Below, one piece after another: positions 7,681 through 45,116 of a DNA stretch of 64,000 nt (the first letter of the stretch is position 1; each line of letters starts with the position of its first letter). Below the pieces are notes generated by a model, which worked only from the letters and a program-made list of their open reading frames with translations, ran no database searches and had not been told where the DNA came from. The translations under genes were made by a program, and so were the position numbers. The stretch is from Bacteroidaceae bacterium (GTDB lineage Bacteria; Bacteroidota; Bacteroidia; Bacteroidales; Bacteroidaceae): assembly GCA_017547385.1 (NCBI GenBank), contig JAFYPU010000014.1, positions 17,615 to 81,614 on the forward strand, given 5' to 3'.

Positions 7681-7764
7681 TCTACAAGGCGTTTAGAAGT
7701 TTCTACAAGCACTGCAGAAATTTCTAAACGCCTTGTAAATTTTTGTAAGCCCCATGTGCCTTTT
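7681..7764. repeat. 21-bp stem-loop array between menCE and lplA
   Basis: Units begin at 7681, 7702 and 7723, exactly 21 bp apart, with a weaker fourth at 7744. Unit 2 is the family core TTCTACAAGCACTGCAGAA. Units 1 and 3 are reverse complements over 16 bp (7683-7698 with 7722-7737) and enclose unit 2. On the minus strand the large hairpin is followed by GATTTTC, so it could also help end the menaquinone transcript, which stops at 7798. Confidence 0.8.
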
Positions 7765-7797: not shown

Positions 7798-9840
7798 TTA
7801 TTTCTTTCTGAGTGCCTCTGCTGCCATTCGGCGAGCCTCGGCTCGAGCCGGTTTTCCGGTGTCAGTAAACGGAAGATGCTCCACCGATAAATAGTGTTTG
7901 GGACGCTCGTGCGATGTGAGCCTTTCGTGGCAAAGTGCTTGCAGTGTTGGCAGATGTTCGGGCGTGTCGGTGATGAGCGTGAGGGCTTCGCCGAATTTGG
8001 CATCGGGCACAGCGGTCAGCTGCATCCGATAAGGATTTGCAAGACGTGCTTCAAGCGTTTCGATTTGCAGTTTCAGTCCTCCTGAGCATACCACATTGTC
8101 GCGGCGTCCAAGCACTTCGAAAGTGCCGTCCTCCAACAAGCGGGCATGGTCATTGGTGTGAAGCGTTTCGGGGCACACTTCGGGTGCATCAATGATTAGA
8201 CAATCATTTTCGTCAATGCTGACTTTTACTTTAGGTAATGGTTGATAACCCGTTGGCGATGCTGTGTTTATGCGTCGCAGTGCAATGTGTGAAAGCGTTT
8301 CCGTCATGCCGTAAGTGCTCCACACATTGTGCGGAAATGAGCGAAGCATGTCTTCAAGTTCAGCACTCATAGCTCCGCCGCCGATGATGAGTTGACGCAC
8401 TTGCCGCAGCATTTCAGCCTCGCGTGGCACGCGTAGTGTTTCCCACACCTGCATGGGGGTCATGGCGGCAAACACAGGGGGGCGGTGCAGGCGTGCCAAG
8501 GGGTGTGCCGAAGGGGCACTTGTGATGAGCTGCAAGTCTTGCGTGAAAGCACGCACAGCCATCATCATGCCGGCAATGCGATGCAGCGGCAGGCAGAGCA
8601 GGGCCGTATCACCGGCTTGCAGGTTCAGAATTTTGCAAGTGGCTTTTGCACTGTTACGCATTCGTTGTTTCTCCACAACAAGTGGCTTGGGCTTCCCTGT
8701 CGAACCGGAGGTGTGCACCGTGAGTGTGGGGCAGTTGTCTTCCCACACTGAGCGGAATTTCTGTAAGTCAGTGCAGAAATCGCGCTCTTCCTTTTTGTCA
8801 ATCCACAGGTGCTCTCCTTCGATTTGAAGTTGTGTTTCTTCAAAATTGTCTGTGAAGAGTTGTCCGGTGCCGAGTCCTTGTGGCAACATGTTGCTGTGCT
8901 TCTCCACGTGTGAGGTCCATTGTGCGATGGCGTTCAGTCCCACGTTGCTTTCGAGTGCACTGGTTACCCAATGTCCGATACCGCGTTTGTCGGCTTCTGC
9001 CATCCACTCTTCAGCACCCGCAAGGCCTCCGTGCAACGACGGCTTGAGGATGATGAATGACGGACGCACCGTGTCAAGCAATCGCTGCTTTTCTGCCGGT
9101 GTGTTGATGCCGATAAGTTCCTCATCCAGTGCGATGGGGAGCGGCGATGTGCGACATAATTCAGCCATTTCCGCCCATTGGCCGGCCCGAATGGGTTGCT
9201 CAATGCTGTGAATGCCCAGTGCAGACAGTCTGGCCAGGCGTTCGGGTGCTTCGGCCGGCGTGAATGCTCCATTGGCATCCACTCGGAGTTGCACTTCATC
9301 AGGTGTGTAGCGTTGGCGAAGCCGTTCGAGCAAATCCATCTCGCGCTCAAAGTCGATGGCACCGATTTTCAATTTTATGCACTTGAAGCCTGCTTTGAGC
9401 TTTTCCTCCATGCGCAAAAGCATTTCCTCGTAGTTGCCCATCCAAACAAGCCCGTTGATGGGTATGCCGTGCGTTCCGCGCGTAAAGGGAGTGTCATAGA
9501 GTTTCAGGTAATGCCCTTTGAGGGAGGCTTGAAACGAAAGGAGAGCCGTTTCAAAGCCGAAAAGAATGGAGGGGAAAGCTCGTAGCGTTTCGTGGTCTAT
9601 GCTTTGTCTTTGCTCCAGTGCGTGTGCAAATTTCCGAAGATGCTCTTCATAGTCGGGACAAGCATCACAACTGAGGTCGGGCAGGGGGGCACATTCGCCC
9701 AACCCCAGGGCATAAGGGTCAGCGGTTGATGTGAGGCGCACATACCACGAGCGGCGGGTATAATAAATGCCGCGCGACGTTCCAGCAGGTTGCTTGAAAT
9801 GGAACGTGCGCGGCTCTATGCAGACTTTGAAAGGTATCAT
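7798..9840 (-). CDS. menC-menE: fused o-succinylbenzoate synthase / o-succinylbenzoyl-CoA synthetase
   Basis: One 680-aa frame carries two consecutive menaquinone steps. Residues 1 to about 350 are MenC of the enolase superfamily: KLK at 156-158, VDAN with D188 and N190, E214, D239 and K266 in ILKPSL, all expected active-site residues. Residues from about 350 are an AMP-forming acyl-CoA ligase: TSGSTGKPK at 377-385, STYGMTET, a hinge block EVLGRRDNVVCSGGLK, and the C-terminal TDTGKPAR with the catalytic lysine. The ligase half is about 330 aa, shorter than many MenE, because little precedes the phosphate loop. Product passes from dehydration to CoA ligation, then to MenB encoded 18 bp upstream. 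No stop or frameshift interrupts the junction. Confidence 0.9.
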   Translation of the reverse strand: MIPFKVCIEPRTFHFKQPAGTSRGIYYTRRSWYVRLTSTADPYALGLGECAPLPDLSCDACPDYEEHLRKFAHALEQRQSIDHETLRAFPSILFGFETALLSFQASLKGHYLKLYDTPFTRGTHGIPINGLVWMGNYEEMLLRMEEKLKAGFKCIKLKIGAIDFEREMDLLERLRQRYTPDEVQLRVDANGAFTPAEAPERLARLSALGIHSIEQPIRAGQWAEMAELCRTSPLPIALDEELIGINTPAEKQRLLDTVRPSFIILKPSLHGGLAGAEEWMAEADKRGIGHWVTSALESNVGLNAIAQWTSHVEKHSNMLPQGLGTGQLFTDNFEETQLQIEGEHLWIDKKEERDFCTDLQKFRSVWEDNCPTLTVHTSGSTGKPKPLVVEKQRMRNSAKATCKILNLQAGDTALLCLPLHRIAGMMMAVRAFTQDLQLITSAPSAHPLARLHRPPVFAAMTPMQVWETLRVPREAEMLRQVRQLIIGGGAMSAELEDMLRSFPHNVWSTYGMTETLSHIALRRINTASPTGYQPLPKVKVSIDENDCLIIDAPEVCPETLHTNDHARLLEDGTFEVLGRRDNVVCSGGLKLQIETLEARLANPYRMQLTAVPDAKFGEALTLITDTPEHLPTLQALCHERLTSHERPKHYLSVEHLPFTDTGKPARAEARRMAAEALRKK

Positions 9841-14481: not shown

Positions 14482-14494
14482 CCCTCGACTTTTA

Positions 14495-14577
14495 CTAAGG
14501 GGTGCTCAATTATATTGTTGGGCTGAGATCATACCCAAGTACCTGAACCGGATAATGCCGGCGTAGGAAATGGTAGA
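14495..14577 (+). promoter_or_regulatory. TPP riboswitch (THI element)
   Basis: The conserved THI-box pieces occur in order: GGGGTGCTC, then GGGCTGAGAT, ACCC, ACCTGAACCGGATAATGCC and GGCGTAGGAA. These form the pyrimidine-sensing and pyrophosphate-sensing helices that bind thiamine pyrophosphate. It ends about 100 nt before the TonB-dependent receptor and should turn that gene off when thiamine is plentiful. The 14578-14678 interval probably holds the expression platform, but I cannot draw its alternative stem with confidence. Confidence 0.95.
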
Positions 14578-14678
14578 AGGTCTTGTGCAGATTTGTAGCA
14601 GCATGCCGGCTGCTCGCTGCTGATTCTCACATCACCATCTAGATCCCCCTTTTCATTATTCACTTAATCATTACGATA

Positions 14679-17019: not shown

Positions 17020-17083
17020 TCCGCAGTGCTTGCAGAATTTTCTGCGAGCACTGCGGAAAATTCTGCAAGCACCGGAGATTTTT
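17020..17083. repeat. 21-bp stem-loop array between the TonB receptor and rnz
   Basis: Three units start at 17020, 17041 and 17062, exactly 21 bp apart: TCCGCAGTGCTTGCAGAA, TTCTGCGAGCACTGCGGAA and TTCTGCAAGCACCGGAG. Unit 1 is the reverse complement of unit 2 with one mismatch, so they can form one long hairpin. The remaining part of 16911-17219 holds the rnz promoter; I see no clear terminator for the receptor gene. Confidence 0.8.
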
Positions 17084-19504: not shown

Positions 19505-19535
19505 CAAAGTTAGTGCAAGGCGAGCGCAAAGCAAA
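19505..19535 (-). promoter_or_regulatory. repeat-borne promoter of the DUF4494 gene
   Basis: On the minus strand: TTTG (19532-19535), 19 nt, TAACTTTG (19505-19512). Perfect match to the Bacteroidetes consensus; leader about 55-60 nt. It lies at the gene-proximal end of the first of three tandem repeat copies; the more distal copies have lost the TA of the -7 box. Confidence 0.75.
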
Positions 19536-19765
19536 AGGAAAACCCCTTTTTCTTTTGCTTTGCCGAGCCGCCGCCTAACTTGGGCAAAGCCAAAGTGTGC
19601 AAGGCTCGGCAAAGCAAAAGGAAAATCCTTTTTTCTTTTGCTTTGCCGAGCCGCCGCCTGACTTGGGCAAGGCCAAAGTGAGCAAGGCGAGCGCAAAGCA
19701 AAAGGAAAATCCTTTTTTCTTTTGCTTTGCCGAGCCGCTGCGCCAGACTTGGGCGAAGCCGAAGT
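19505..19765. repeat. three tandem copies of the ~84-bp promoter-carrying element
   Basis: GCAAGG landmarks at 19515, 19599 and 19682 give periods of 84 and 83 bp. Each copy has a strong hairpin (GCAAAGCAAAAGG with CTTTTGCTTTGC arms) flanked by GAGCCGCCGCCTAACTTGGGC on one side and GCAAGGCGAGCG on the other. It fills the 19,444-19,814 gap between DUF4494 and the TlpA-like gene, which otherwise holds only a terminator. Confidence 0.85.
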
Positions 19766-19814
19766 GTGATTTAGAACAGTCCGGGCGTGTGGTTCTGAGC
19801 GTAGTTAAATTGAT

Positions 19815-27078: not shown

Positions 27079-27141
27079 TTTGCAAAGCCTCCGAAATTTT
27101 CGCCTGTGCTTCCGGAAAATTCTGCAGTGCTTGCAAAAAAT
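27079..27141. repeat. 21-bp stem-loop array upstream of hemW
   Basis: Units begin at 27079, 27100 and 27121: TTTGCAAAGCCTCCGAAAT, TTCGCCTGTGCTTCCGGAA and TTCTGCAGTGCTTGCAAAA. Period exactly 21. Unit 3 carries AGTGCTT, the complement of the family loop AAGCACT. Confidence 0.75.
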
Positions 27142-38530: not shown

Positions 38531-38594
38531 GTGGCAGGCCTTGCCACTTTTGTGGCAGTGCTCGCCACTTTTGTGGCAAGGCCTGCCACTTTTG
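38531..38594. repeat. 21-bp stem-loop array upstream of dnaG
   Basis: Units begin at 38531, 38552 and 38573. Each has perfect GTGGC/GCCAC arms and a 7-nt loop (AGGCCTT, AGTGCTC, AAGGCCT). Unit 1 is the exact reverse complement of unit 3, so the array can also fold as a long hairpin with unit 2 in the loop, as at 7681. Confidence 0.85.
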
Positions 38595-42305: not shown

Positions 42306-42400
42306 TCCGGAAGCATTGTAGGAAATTCTACAAGCACTGCAGAATTTTCTACAAGCACTGCAGAAAAATCCGGAAGCACTGCAGATTTCTGTGCTCCCAT
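42306..42400. repeat. 21-bp stem-loop array, best-conserved copy
   Basis: Units begin at 42306, 42327, 42348 and 42369, exactly 21 bp apart; a partial fifth unit follows at 42388. Cores: TCCGGAAGCATTGTAGGAA, TTCTACAAGCACTGCAGAA (twice) and TCCGGAAGCACTGCAGA. Each has six-base arms and a 7-nt loop AAGCACT (AAGCATT in unit 1). It ends 23 bp before the DUF1599 promoter. Confidence 0.9.
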
Positions 42401-42547: not shown

Positions 42548-43096
42548 ATGGTAGAAATGAACACGAAAGAACAGTTTGAGAGCGTGATGCGCTCATGTCG
42601 TGAACTGTTTATTAAAAAAATGCATGATTATGGTACAGCTTGGCGCATCATGCGTCCGGCTTCCATCACCGACCAGCTGTATATCAAAGCCAATCGCATC
42701 CGAACGCTTCAGGTGAAAGGACACGCAATGGTGGACGAGGGAATTGTTCCCGAGTTTGTGGCCATCGTGAACTATTGCATCATGGGAATGGTGCAACTCG
42801 AATTGGGATTTTCGGAAGGTAGCGATTTGAACGATGACGAAGCTTTGGCACTCTATGACAAGCATGCCACGGCATCGCTGGAATTGATGCTGAAGAAAAA
42901 TCATGACTACGATGAGGCTTGGCGTGGCATGCGTGTCGGCTCGTATACCGACCTCATTCTGATGAAGATATTCCGCACCAAGCAAATTGAGGACCTGGAA
43001 GGCGATACGTTGGTGTCGGAAGGCATTACCGCCAATTATATGGATATGCTCAACTATGCCGTGTTCGGCTTAATCAAACTTACCCTTGAAGCATAA
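42548..43096 (+). CDS. DUF1599 protein with internally duplicated domain
   Basis: 182 aa. The pattern [13 protein letters not shown]...IKxxRIxxL...VxEGIxxxxxxxxNYxxxG occurs twice (about residues 24-85 and 116-178): [14 protein letters not shown] and [14 protein letters not shown]. This is the DUF1599 / nucleotide-modification-associated type 1 family; biochemical role unknown. ATGs at 42548 and 42557 are both possible. Gene order DUF1599, BT_3928-like, tpiA, SPOR, folE is one I recall as common in Bacteroidales. Its stop overlaps the proposed TTG start of the next gene by 11 bp. Confidence 0.88.
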
Positions 43097-45116
43097 GCAC
43101 ATTTACACCTCCTTGGTGCCGGCCATGGTGGCCCGTTGGGTGTTGGCCGCTGTGTTTCTCTTTTCGGGATTTGTGAAAGCAGCCGATCCCAGTGGAATGG
43201 CATTGAAGCTGAATGCCTATCTGCGCTATGTAGGAGGAAATCTTCCCGATGATAGTCTGTGTCTGCTGGGTGCTTCGGTGCTGCTTGCCACAGTGGAATT
43301 TATGCTCGGTGTGTATCTGTTGTTGGGCATTCGTCGCCGCTTCACAGTGAAGTGCACGCTGCTCATCATGTTGCTGATGACTGCGGTTACGGCATGGATA
43401 TATGCTTTTGACCCGGTGCCCGATTGTGGTTGCTTTGGTGAGGCGCTGAAACTGAGCCATGGACAGACATTGGTCAAAAATGTGGTGTTGCTCTTGTTGG
43501 CCATGTTTTTGCAACATCGGCGATGGGCACCCCGTCGTTTCATTTCGGAACGCCATCAGTGGGTGGTGTCGGTGTATTCGATATGCTACATTGTGGTGTT
43601 GGGAATATATGCCGCCCATTATTTGCCGCCCATCGATTTCACGCCTTATCGGCTCGGTACACATTTGCCTACAGCCATGCGGGGCGAAATGCACACTCTC
43701 TTTATCTATGAGAAGGATGGGGAGCAACGTGAATTTAGTGAGGATGCTTTGCCAGAAGAACCGTGGCAGTTTGTAGATGCTCGCACAGAAGTGCTGAAAG
43801 CTCCGGATGTGGTTGATTTCAGTCTCTCTTCTTTCGGACAAGCCGAAGACCTTACGGAACAGGTACTTTCGGATAGCGGATACACCTTTCTGCTCACGCT
43901 TCCGCATGCAGAGACCGCTGACGACGGGAACACCGATCGCATCAATGATATTTATGACTTCTGCCGAGATGCCGGCCACGCATTTTATGGCTTGACTGCA
44001 TCGGGAGAAGAGGCCGTGGAGAATTGGAAAGACCGCACAGGAGCTGCTTATTCCTTTCTGTGCAGTTCGGACGAAACCATCAAAGCCATGGTGCGTGCCA
44101 CCCCGGGATTGATGCTCCTACACGAAGGACGCATCGTGGGAAAGTGGAGCCACAATGCTTTGCCCGAAGATATAGAAACGGGAGGGATTGAACGATTGGA
44201 GCGTGAACAAATGTCAGAAGGAGGACTTTCGCCAAGCCTGCGTTTGCTGTTGCTCTATGTGGGACCGCTGCTCTTTGTCCTTCTGTTCGATGCCCTTTGG
44301 GTGGGAAGCAAGTATTACAAACGATATACCATTAAGAAACATTTAAATCAAAAGAAAATGAGAAAGAAAATTGTAGCAGGAAACTGGAAAATGAACCTGA
44401 ACCTGCAAGAAGGTGTGGCTCTTGCCAAGGAACTCAATGCAGCTCTCACTGCCGACAAGCCCAATTGCGACGTGGTGATTTGCACTCCCTTTATCCACCT
44501 TGCCAGTGTGGCCGGTGAGCTTACCGAAGGTCTGATTGGCCTCGGAGCTGAAAACTGTGCCGATAAGGTGTCTGGTGCTTACACCGGAGAAGTGAGCGCA
44601 GCTATGGTGAAATCCACCGGTGCTCAGTATGTAATCCTTGGACACAGTGAACGTCGTTCTTACTATGGCGAAACAGAAGAAATTCTGAAGGAAAAAACCA
44701 ACTTGGCACTTGCTAATGGTTTGAAAGTGATTTTCTGCATCGGTGAGGTGCTGGAAGAGCGCGAAAGCGGCAAGCAAAACGAAGTTGTGAAAGCACAGAT
44801 CGAAGGTTCTCTGTTCGACTTGAGCGTTGAAGAACTCTCAAACATCATCTTGGCTTACGAACCCGTTTGGGCAATCGGTACCGGCAAAACTGCCACAGCC
44901 GAACAAGCTGAAGAGATGCACGCTTTCATTCGTGGTGTCATTGCTGAGAAGTTTGGTGCTGAAGCAGCCGAAAACATTTCTATCCTTTACGGCGGAAGCT
45001 GCAAACCCAGCAACGCTAAGGAAATCTTCTCTAAGGAAAATGTGGATGGTGGTCTCATTGGTGGTGCAGCCCTCAAGGTTGCAGACTTCAAGGGCATCAT
45101 CGACGCTTGGAAGTAA
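43086..45116 (+). CDS. tpiA: BT_3928-like membrane protein read through into triosephosphate isomerase
   Basis: One 676-aa frame. Residues 1-424: a DoxX/MauE-like membrane protein (segments near 13-30, 55-80, 85-105, 137-180), motif [23 protein letters not shown], a thioredoxin-like periplasmic part without a CxxC, and a last membrane segment (about 396-415). Residues 425-676: complete TpiA, starting [13 protein letters not shown], with K at 12, catalytic HSERR and [13 protein letters not shown], and loop [10 protein letters not shown]. No stop separates them. TpiA could also start at ATG 44358, which is preceded by an A-rich stretch. The upstream start is probably TTG 43086 (ATG 43125 is an alternative). 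If fused, TpiA would be tethered on the cytoplasmic face. Confidence 0.9.

Follow-up and report, generated by a model that had tools for sequence, protein, structure and literature searches.

The genome to which this DNA belongs carries, between its genes, a system of helically phased arrays, each typically made of three palindromic units that follow one another at exactly 21 bp; the arrays avoid each other and are spaced more regularly along the chromosome than random placement would give. We confirm that the arrays are real and that those of the window, the 64,000-bp stretch analysed here, are part of a genome-wide system.

The window corresponds to C34:17615-81614 of a 2.35-Mb draft genome in 34 contigs (labelled G000), whose closest named relative found is the Bacteroidaceae MAG RGIG4240 from roe deer colon (67% protein identity, for a single 791-aa query). 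Gene calls were made with our own script rather than with a standard caller. We note that minus-strand centres were 2 bp off in the palindrome-scan, density, gap-spacing, orthologous-gap, cut-off and G016 analyses, which leaves the conclusions unaffected.

Anatomy and helical phase of the arrays

An earlier note on this DNA had reported six arrays in the window, and all six were recovered at the same places, with steps of 21 bp in five of them. The array at 316-443 has six units of a separate class (such as AGTATCACGCCTTGACACT), at steps that we counted as 21, 21, 22, 22 and 22 bp; it has a TRF score of 138 and was missed by our element model, which was started from 24 three-unit seeds and then refined on stronger matches. 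The model detected the other five. The array at 7681-7764 (score 68.4) is a K-class triplet, with its core at 7681-7739, accompanied by a degenerate fourth unit, and that at 17020-17083 (74.6) is a T-class triplet whose first unit, with an AGTGCTT core, is inverted with respect to units 2 and 3. A degenerate triplet lies at 27079-27141 (48.5), and a G-class triplet, GTGGCAGGCCTTGCCAC ... GTGGCAAGGCCTGCCAC, in which units 1 and 3 are exact reverse complements, at 38531-38594 (44.5). The last array, at 42306-42400 (55.4), is located between divergent genes and is of the T class, with four units and a triplet core at 42327-42385.

The typical element consists of three 21-bp units, each formed by a 17-bp palindrome (TCTGCAAGCACTGCAGA in one common class) and a 4-bp A/T spacer, and both flanks carry weaker units and A/T tracts in phase. 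Unit classes were named T (AAGCACT core), K (AAGGCGTTTAGA, with variants) and G (GGCAAGGCCTGCC). AAGCACT, which had been proposed as a core shared by the arrays, is just one core among several, that of the T class; K and G units are common as well, and the array at 38531-38594 is itself of the G class. A rarer S class is found at 316-443 and at two other loci, and a rarer A class in the related genome G008 forms a 21-bp array with ATATAT spacers and CTTGCAA cores (L027:4808-5012, L054:7159-7355). Column frequencies of 49 aligned elements indicate that a left extension like GCTGACACTTTGC is common to about half of them, and no common tail was seen past the fourth weak unit in the same alignment.

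The 21-bp period is strict. Frame boundaries in G000 were 21 bp apart in 75 cases, 22 bp apart in two and 20 bp apart in none; a spacing of 21 bp was counted 72 times in G008, 6 times in G005 and 23 times in G016, that of 20 bp never and that of 22 bp in G000 alone, and 200 kb of G004 contained no frame-boundary spacing at 21 bp. Between matches with up to two mismatches in 460.6 kb, a distance of 21 bp was counted 58 times and one of 42 bp 31 times, and distances of 20 or 22 bp never occurred. The same period emerged from clusters of intergenic self-similarity, with 42 at lag 21 in G000 (8 or fewer, the maximum being at lag 22, for other lags between 12 and 39) and 73 at lag 21 in G008 (1 or fewer at other lags).

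The element model found 52 elements, two of them weak, in 460.6 kb of G000, and 105 at a score of at least 25 (114 in all) in 858.2 kb, which extrapolates to approximately 290 in the entire genome. Over the whole genome, GCAAGCACTGC with at most one mismatch was matched 256 + 241 times, and the reversed pattern 12 + 14 times, making the former some 19 times as frequent (497 versus 26). The comparison with the rest of the genome and with shuffled sequence, suggested in the earlier note, revealed arrays genome-wide and, in a scan for the palindrome layout that is blind to the cores, 94 positions with a score of at least 40 versus none in one mononucleotide-shuffled copy; at a score of 38 the counts were 137 and 3.

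Several other features of the window were recorded. An 83-bp repeat is present in three tandem copies at 19513-19768 (TRF score 417), and sequence resembling it was seen by eye in gaps next to elements at C9 165084 and C4 154454. The single reading frame at 7798-9840 combines an AMP-binding domain with an enolase-like one of the MenC type, in an apparent fusion, while that at 43086-45116 carries a MauE/DoxX-type membrane domain followed by an entire triosephosphate isomerase domain. A TPP riboswitch (14488-14587) immediately precedes a gene for a TonB-dependent receptor.

Symmetry at two levels

Every unit is a palindrome by itself, and units 1 and 3 are often reverse complements of each other; several arrays also form one long palindrome, a feature that was absent from the earlier note. 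Of 204 elements, 104 have their first and third units in inverted orientation (68 K..k, 29 t..T and 7 T..t), and the remainder comprises 11 T..T elements with both units in the same direction, 23 K..T and other mixed-class elements, 24 G..G elements, which carry no direction score, and symmetric or unclassified ones. When 49 elements were aligned, 86.0% of the cells of the long palindrome were paired, with a covariation of 0.384 (0.177 when shuffled) and double changes in 24 of 27 pairs, and the three small hairpins were 86.5% paired, with a covariation of 0.329 (0.182 when shuffled).

Pairing and covariation above those of shuffles would be expected if the elements acted through base pairing of the DNA itself, as cruciforms or hairpins that require no protein dedicated to them and could, for instance, absorb negative supercoils. 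Since kinship among rows inflates covariation scores, we also compared orthologous elements of G000 and G008. Here, 41 concerted changes of units 1 and 3 were counted versus 11.0 in shuffles (sd 4.5, highest of 1000 shuffles 34), in agreement with pairing, but they are confined to 13 of 45 orthologous elements and, over the 765 cells compared, are outnumbered by one-sided changes that create or abolish a pair, of which there are 137. For the whole long palindrome, the excess in orthologues (50 concerted changes versus 23.4) only equals the highest shuffle, which also reached 50, and the small hairpins display no clear excess (15 versus 9.1, highest shuffle 19).

The arms of K..k elements carry the same variant in 67 of 68 cases at five variable positions (AAGGC in 45, ACGGC in 12, TCGGC in 8 and GCGGC in 2). 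Within classes, the own pairing of elements exceeds that of shuffles for K..k (0.926 versus 0.850, highest 0.872) and for G..G (0.924 versus 0.853, highest 0.897), and G016 also shows a coupling of units 1 and 3 (0.659 versus 0.556, with 0.666 as the maximum in 1000 shuffles, n = 38). Against a role of base pairing, the t..T class shows little coupling (0.917 versus 0.905, highest shuffle 0.927), and in G005 units 1 and 3 are uncoupled (0.522 versus 0.555 when shuffled, n = 15). In addition, cruciforms would not need an exact 21-bp period, and template-switch correction during replication could produce the same matching of the arms. We regard an action through base pairing, independent of a dedicated protein, as distinctly unlikely.

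Position along the chromosome

Nearly all elements are intergenic, in gaps of every gene orientation; at a score of at least 25, only 1 of 105 elements in G000 and 5 of 107 in G008 could not be assigned to a gap of at least 100 bp. Among gaps of this size, G000 has 33 of 65 occupied between divergent genes, 55 of 212 between tandem genes and 15 of 58 between convergent genes; the corresponding counts for G008 are 26 of 65, 54 of 168 and 19 of 60. In a first sample of 460.6 kb, divergent gaps had appeared enriched (20 elements in 35 divergent gaps and 4 in 33 convergent ones, for gaps of at least 80 bp). In the larger samples, the number of elements per kb of intergenic DNA differs little with gene orientation (for tandem, convergent and divergent gaps, respectively, 0.66, 0.85 and 0.89 in G000 and 0.90, 0.92 and 0.83 in G008), and a promoter or divergent-gap function was dropped for this reason; the early enrichment is mostly explained by small-sample noise and by longer gaps.

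RNA hairpins had been put forward in the earlier note as a possible role for the arrays. Terminators or mRNA-stabilising hairpins would fit stem-loops flanked by A/T, as well as the median distance to stop codons, which is 114 bp in G000 and 120 bp in G008 (272 and 247 bp to start codons). For elements between genes of the same direction, oriented by transcription (106 elements of the two genomes G000 and G008, with orthologues counted once per genome), selection on RNA is expected to leave more G-U than A-C mismatches. On the transcribed strand, however, G-U mismatches were not in excess over A-C in either the long palindrome (120 versus 123) or the small hairpins (130 versus 139), and an RNA-hairpin role is therefore unsupported. 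Divergent gaps are similarly dense in elements, convergent gaps being no denser, the arrays of the window have no match in Rfam, and a strict 21-bp phase has no obvious use in RNA. The elements show neither the convergent-gap enrichment nor the RNA-strand pairing preference of intrinsic terminators, a candidate that was rejected, and we consider RNA elements of any of these kinds very improbable.

Along the chromosome, the elements keep a distance from each other. Intervals between elements were compared with those obtained by placing the same number of elements randomly in the intergenic regions of the same contigs. The 98 intervals of G000 (median 6282 bp) are more regular than random ones (CV 0.612 versus 0.874, 0 of 3000), with 5.1% of them shorter than 3 kb versus 24.2% expected (0 of 3000). 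For the 87 intervals of G008 (median 5762 bp), the CV was 0.628 versus 0.801 (15 of 3000), the share below 3 kb 5.7% versus 23.6% and the MAD/median ratio 0.259 versus 0.478 (0 of 3000 for both). Varying the intergenic cut-off (120, 200 or 250 bp) left the share below 3 kb and the MAD/median ratio at 0 of 2000 in both genomes; the CV of G008 weakened as the cut-off became stricter, with 25 and 7 of 2000 simulations at 200 bp and with 138 and 145 at 250 bp. The 35 intervals of G016 include 2.9% below 3 kb versus 20.1% expected (5 of 3000), with 23 of 3000 for MAD/median and a CV that was not significant (484 of 3000).

Intervals in G005 measure 9.7, 11.5, 9.1, 12.2, 5.4, 8.5 and 11.2 kb in one stretch of 80 kb, 6.5, 18.8 and 22.3 kb in 60 kb, and 7.7 and 8.1 kb in 20 kb. 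Long parts of G000 C26 and G008 C2 have nearly identical series of intervals. Contig C6 of G008 (150 kb, 40 kb of which entered the spacing test) is irregular, its 9 elements being separated by 7.8, 18.8, 48.6, 9.5, 2.1, 8.4, 5.4 and 35.3 kb; intervals reach 28.6 kb on G000 C4, and per 100 kb the contigs of G000 carry between 6.9 and 16.0 elements. In a search for an origin-to-terminus gradient, the dnaA gene was placed on C6 of G008, a contig poor in elements, and the element-free 48.6 kb (C6:38890-87445, L116-L119) start approximately 5 kb past it. At the start of G000 C26 there is a change in GC skew, but no origin markers were found among 10 proteins. Mutual avoidance below 3 kb and near-even spacing on several contigs are firm observations, and avoidance could also be obtained through recombination that removes close copies.

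The comparison of G000 with G008 shows that, in this species pair, position is kept while sequence is replaced. The two genomes share 314 reciprocal best hits with a median protein identity of 90.7%, and 147 orthologous gaps could be compared. An element is present in both genomes in 47 of these gaps, in G000 only in 11, in G008 only in 1 and in neither in 88 (Fisher 1.4e-26). For 45 one-to-one pairs of elements, the median difference in distance to the flanking gene is 7 bp on the left and 4 bp on the right. Ungapped identity amounts to 50.2 of 63 bases for orthologous elements and 43.2 for non-orthologous ones, and to 24.7 of 48 bases for the flanks. The class of the units often differs at the same orthologous place; the G008 gap that corresponds to 7681-7764 carries a G-class triplet about 20 bp away, and an element is also present in the gap that corresponds to 42306-42400. 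G005 has little synteny with either genome, and its comparison with G000 yielded one gap occupied in G005 alone and five without an element in either genome, that with G008 three of the latter kind.

Other species, known repeats and a possible chromosome role

From species to species, the layout is constant and the sequence of the palindromes differs. A first pattern, TCTRC-N7-GYAGA-N4-TCTRC-N7-GYAGA with 2 mismatches, was run on 58 genomes of the genus and matched 17 of them, but only four have more than 10 matches (316 in G000, 209 in G008, 58 in G005 and 52 in G065); G064 has 6, G066 has 3, G004 also has 3, which are unlike array units by eye, and the rest have at most 2. The reversed control gave at most one match per genome, in seven genomes. 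A second pattern restricted to the frame, AGAAWWTTCT-N11-AGAAWWTTCT with 1 mismatch, matched 26 of 399 genomes of the family, with 162 matches in G000, 97 in G008, 55 in G065, 55 in G016 (where the first pattern had none), 19 in G005, 9 in G030, 7 each in G069 and G106, 3 each in G064 and G137, and 1 or 2 in 16 others; its control matched three genomes, once each. Two of the matched genomes, G106 and G137, are from other genera and are represented by these counts only. A covariance model had matches in 10 of 61 genomes, with at least 72 each in G000 and G008, 15 in G005, 7 in G023, 4 in G001, 2 each in G015, G035 and G059, and 1 each in G009 and G029; among the weak ones, stretches of G001, G005 and G023 were inspected.

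The cores are GTGGGAC in G005, CTCAGAG in G064, of several kinds in G065, and of the TCTATCGCAGCGATAGA and ACAAGTGTAGTCCCAGA types in G016, where 38 of 39 model matches in 400 kb are intergenic. No comparable triplets were seen in the stretches of G001 (20 kb), G004 (200 kb) and G023 (20 kb). The first of these has four lag-21 clusters that are unlike array units, the second has no lag-21 cluster and five palindrome-scan positions at scores of 40-42, and the third has a single 21-bp tandem locus. Adjoining tandem arrays of 22 and 21 bp, with units TACACAAAG... and GCAAGGCTTACGGATTGATTT, were observed at L045:5398-5700 of G023 and are similar in style.

Species-specific cores within a common frame could represent the dialects of a self-recognition or DNA-uptake signal, whose core would be read in natural transformation and be spread by drive to about one copy per transferred fragment, thereby becoming evenly spaced. 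As in the DNA uptake sequences of Haemophilus and Neisseria, the core is over-represented, spacing is even and groups differ; even spacing is reported for uptake sequences, at a level that is less even than compaction would need (PMC1939737). Uptake sequences are short and often coding, with 65% in reading frames in Haemophilus and 35% in gonococcus (PMC1939737), whereas here the core is part of a phased triplet, which uptake would not require, and is found almost only within elements. Indeed, exact GCAAGCACTGC lies outside elements in just 3 of 74 cases in G000 and 5 of 81 in G008, and in coding DNA in 2 of 74 and 3 of 81. The latter counts speak against an identity as uptake sequences, which are dispersed also in coding DNA, and we give an uptake or self-recognition signal a slim chance.

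We found no description of such arrays in the open-licence literature, nor in Rfam, which was searched with the window; the view of the earlier note that this is an intergenic repeat system not previously described is supported, and extends to a genome-wide, helically phased one. The note had also named the BrickBuilt MITE of Porphyromonas gingivalis as a possible analogue. The likeness is a loose one: BrickBuilt, whose host belongs to the Bacteroidota as does the present genome, is intergenic and has a tandem unit of about two helix turns. It is composed of 23-nt direct repeats, in 19 copies with 1 to 22.8 units, and has a leader and a tail with terminal inverted repeats (PMC4596501), in contrast to arrays of 21-bp units, typically three. 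Membership in BrickBuilt was rejected, the arrays lacking its combination of terminal inverted repeats and variable 23-nt direct repeats.

The elements could derive from REPIN- or MITE-like repeats that a transposase formerly dispersed and that are now immobile, fixed and decaying, retained in harmless gaps. They are intergenic and present in many copies, and REP, REPIN and BIME sequences (GTAG- and CGTC-tagged families associated with RAYTs) are likewise short multicopy extragenic palindromes that form inverted pairs, as do the palindromic units of the 104 elements described above; the two-level palindrome (the unit, and unit 1 with unit 3) resembles REPINs and counts in favour of this possibility. 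Moreover, 12 of the 59 occupied orthologous gaps are filled in one species only, and G000 has one RAYT-type Y1-transposase gene, the sole one found (L022:1402-1857, 151 aa, HVH motif). However, the 3336-bp locus of this gene contains no 11-base core within 1 mismatch, and the unit ends carry neither a GTAG nor a CGTC tag but read TCT...AGA in the consensus of 49 elements. Y1_Tnp is present in 28 of 58 genomes (incomplete drafts), most of which have no arrays by the patterns used, and was not found in the array-bearing drafts of G005 (85% complete) and G065 (95%). RAYT mobilisation was rejected because Y1 genes occur in array-less genomes and are absent from two array-bearing ones, in addition to the lack of a core at the locus. 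Avoidance, over-regular spacing, a fixed 21-bp phase over three units and positions conserved despite diverged flanks would not be expected of such repeats either, and the genome analysis described with RepRanger detected no clear clustering or periodicity of REPs (PMC12306157). An origin as immobilised repeats therefore appears unlikely to us.

Gyrase cleaves the BIME-2 elements of E. coli, which may have a part in organising the genome (PMC6379681). Strong gyrase sites are, like the arrays, long symmetric elements in which A/T and G/C content is phased with the helix, but the E. coli gyrase motif is degenerate, covers 130 bp and has a period of 10.75 bp (PMC6379681), versus a period of 21 bp with specific cores here. 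As gyrase sites, the arrays match only in part, through symmetry and A/T phasing, and this candidate was set aside.

Protein-binding sites, the other role named in the earlier note, remain the best reading of the arrays, on the indirect grounds of exact phase, spacing and position. The exact two-turn spacing of sequence-specific palindromes points to a dimeric protein on DNA, and the avoidance between elements, their near-even spacing and their conserved positions suggest a function for the chromosome rather than for single genes; the absence of a strong dependence on gene orientation and of an RNA signature is consistent with both. We propose, with a confidence that falls a little short of even, that each element is a DNA-level docking array for a putative cooperative dimeric protein, and that the arrays mark or insulate chromosome segments of approximately 5-10 kb. 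Each 17-bp palindromic unit would bind one putative dimer, and the 4-bp A/T spacer would place the units exactly two helix turns apart, so that three dimers could bind cooperatively on one face of the DNA. Intergenic clusters every 5-10 kb or so might then punctuate the chromosome as supercoil barriers, loop anchors or nucleoid tether points, while the A/T frame is common to species of the genus and the species-specific core would track a fast-changing recognition domain. Domains of 10 kb are named in PMC3420936, and the median element spacing near 6 kb is of that order.

The main feature for which a docking array has no use is the matching of the arms, which in K..k elements exceeds what a dimeric binder would require, and which fits a cruciform or copying during replication. 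Also against a docking array, most genomes of the genus are array-less by the patterns used, and regularity and density are uneven.

To our knowledge, what determines the size of small supercoiling domains in bacterial chromosomes is unsettled, and few regularly placed chromosomal sequence elements are known. The arrays may constitute a sequence-encoded chromosome ruler, in which a boundary element with a conserved two-turn frame and fast-replaced species cores recurs every 5-10 kb and is read by a putative fast-evolving architectural protein; we advance this broader proposal tentatively, as one that would more readily fail than hold. If true, domain boundaries would be predictable from sequence in several species with different cores. 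The arrays also provide an instance of conserved position and layout combined with replacement of the sequence that is recognised.
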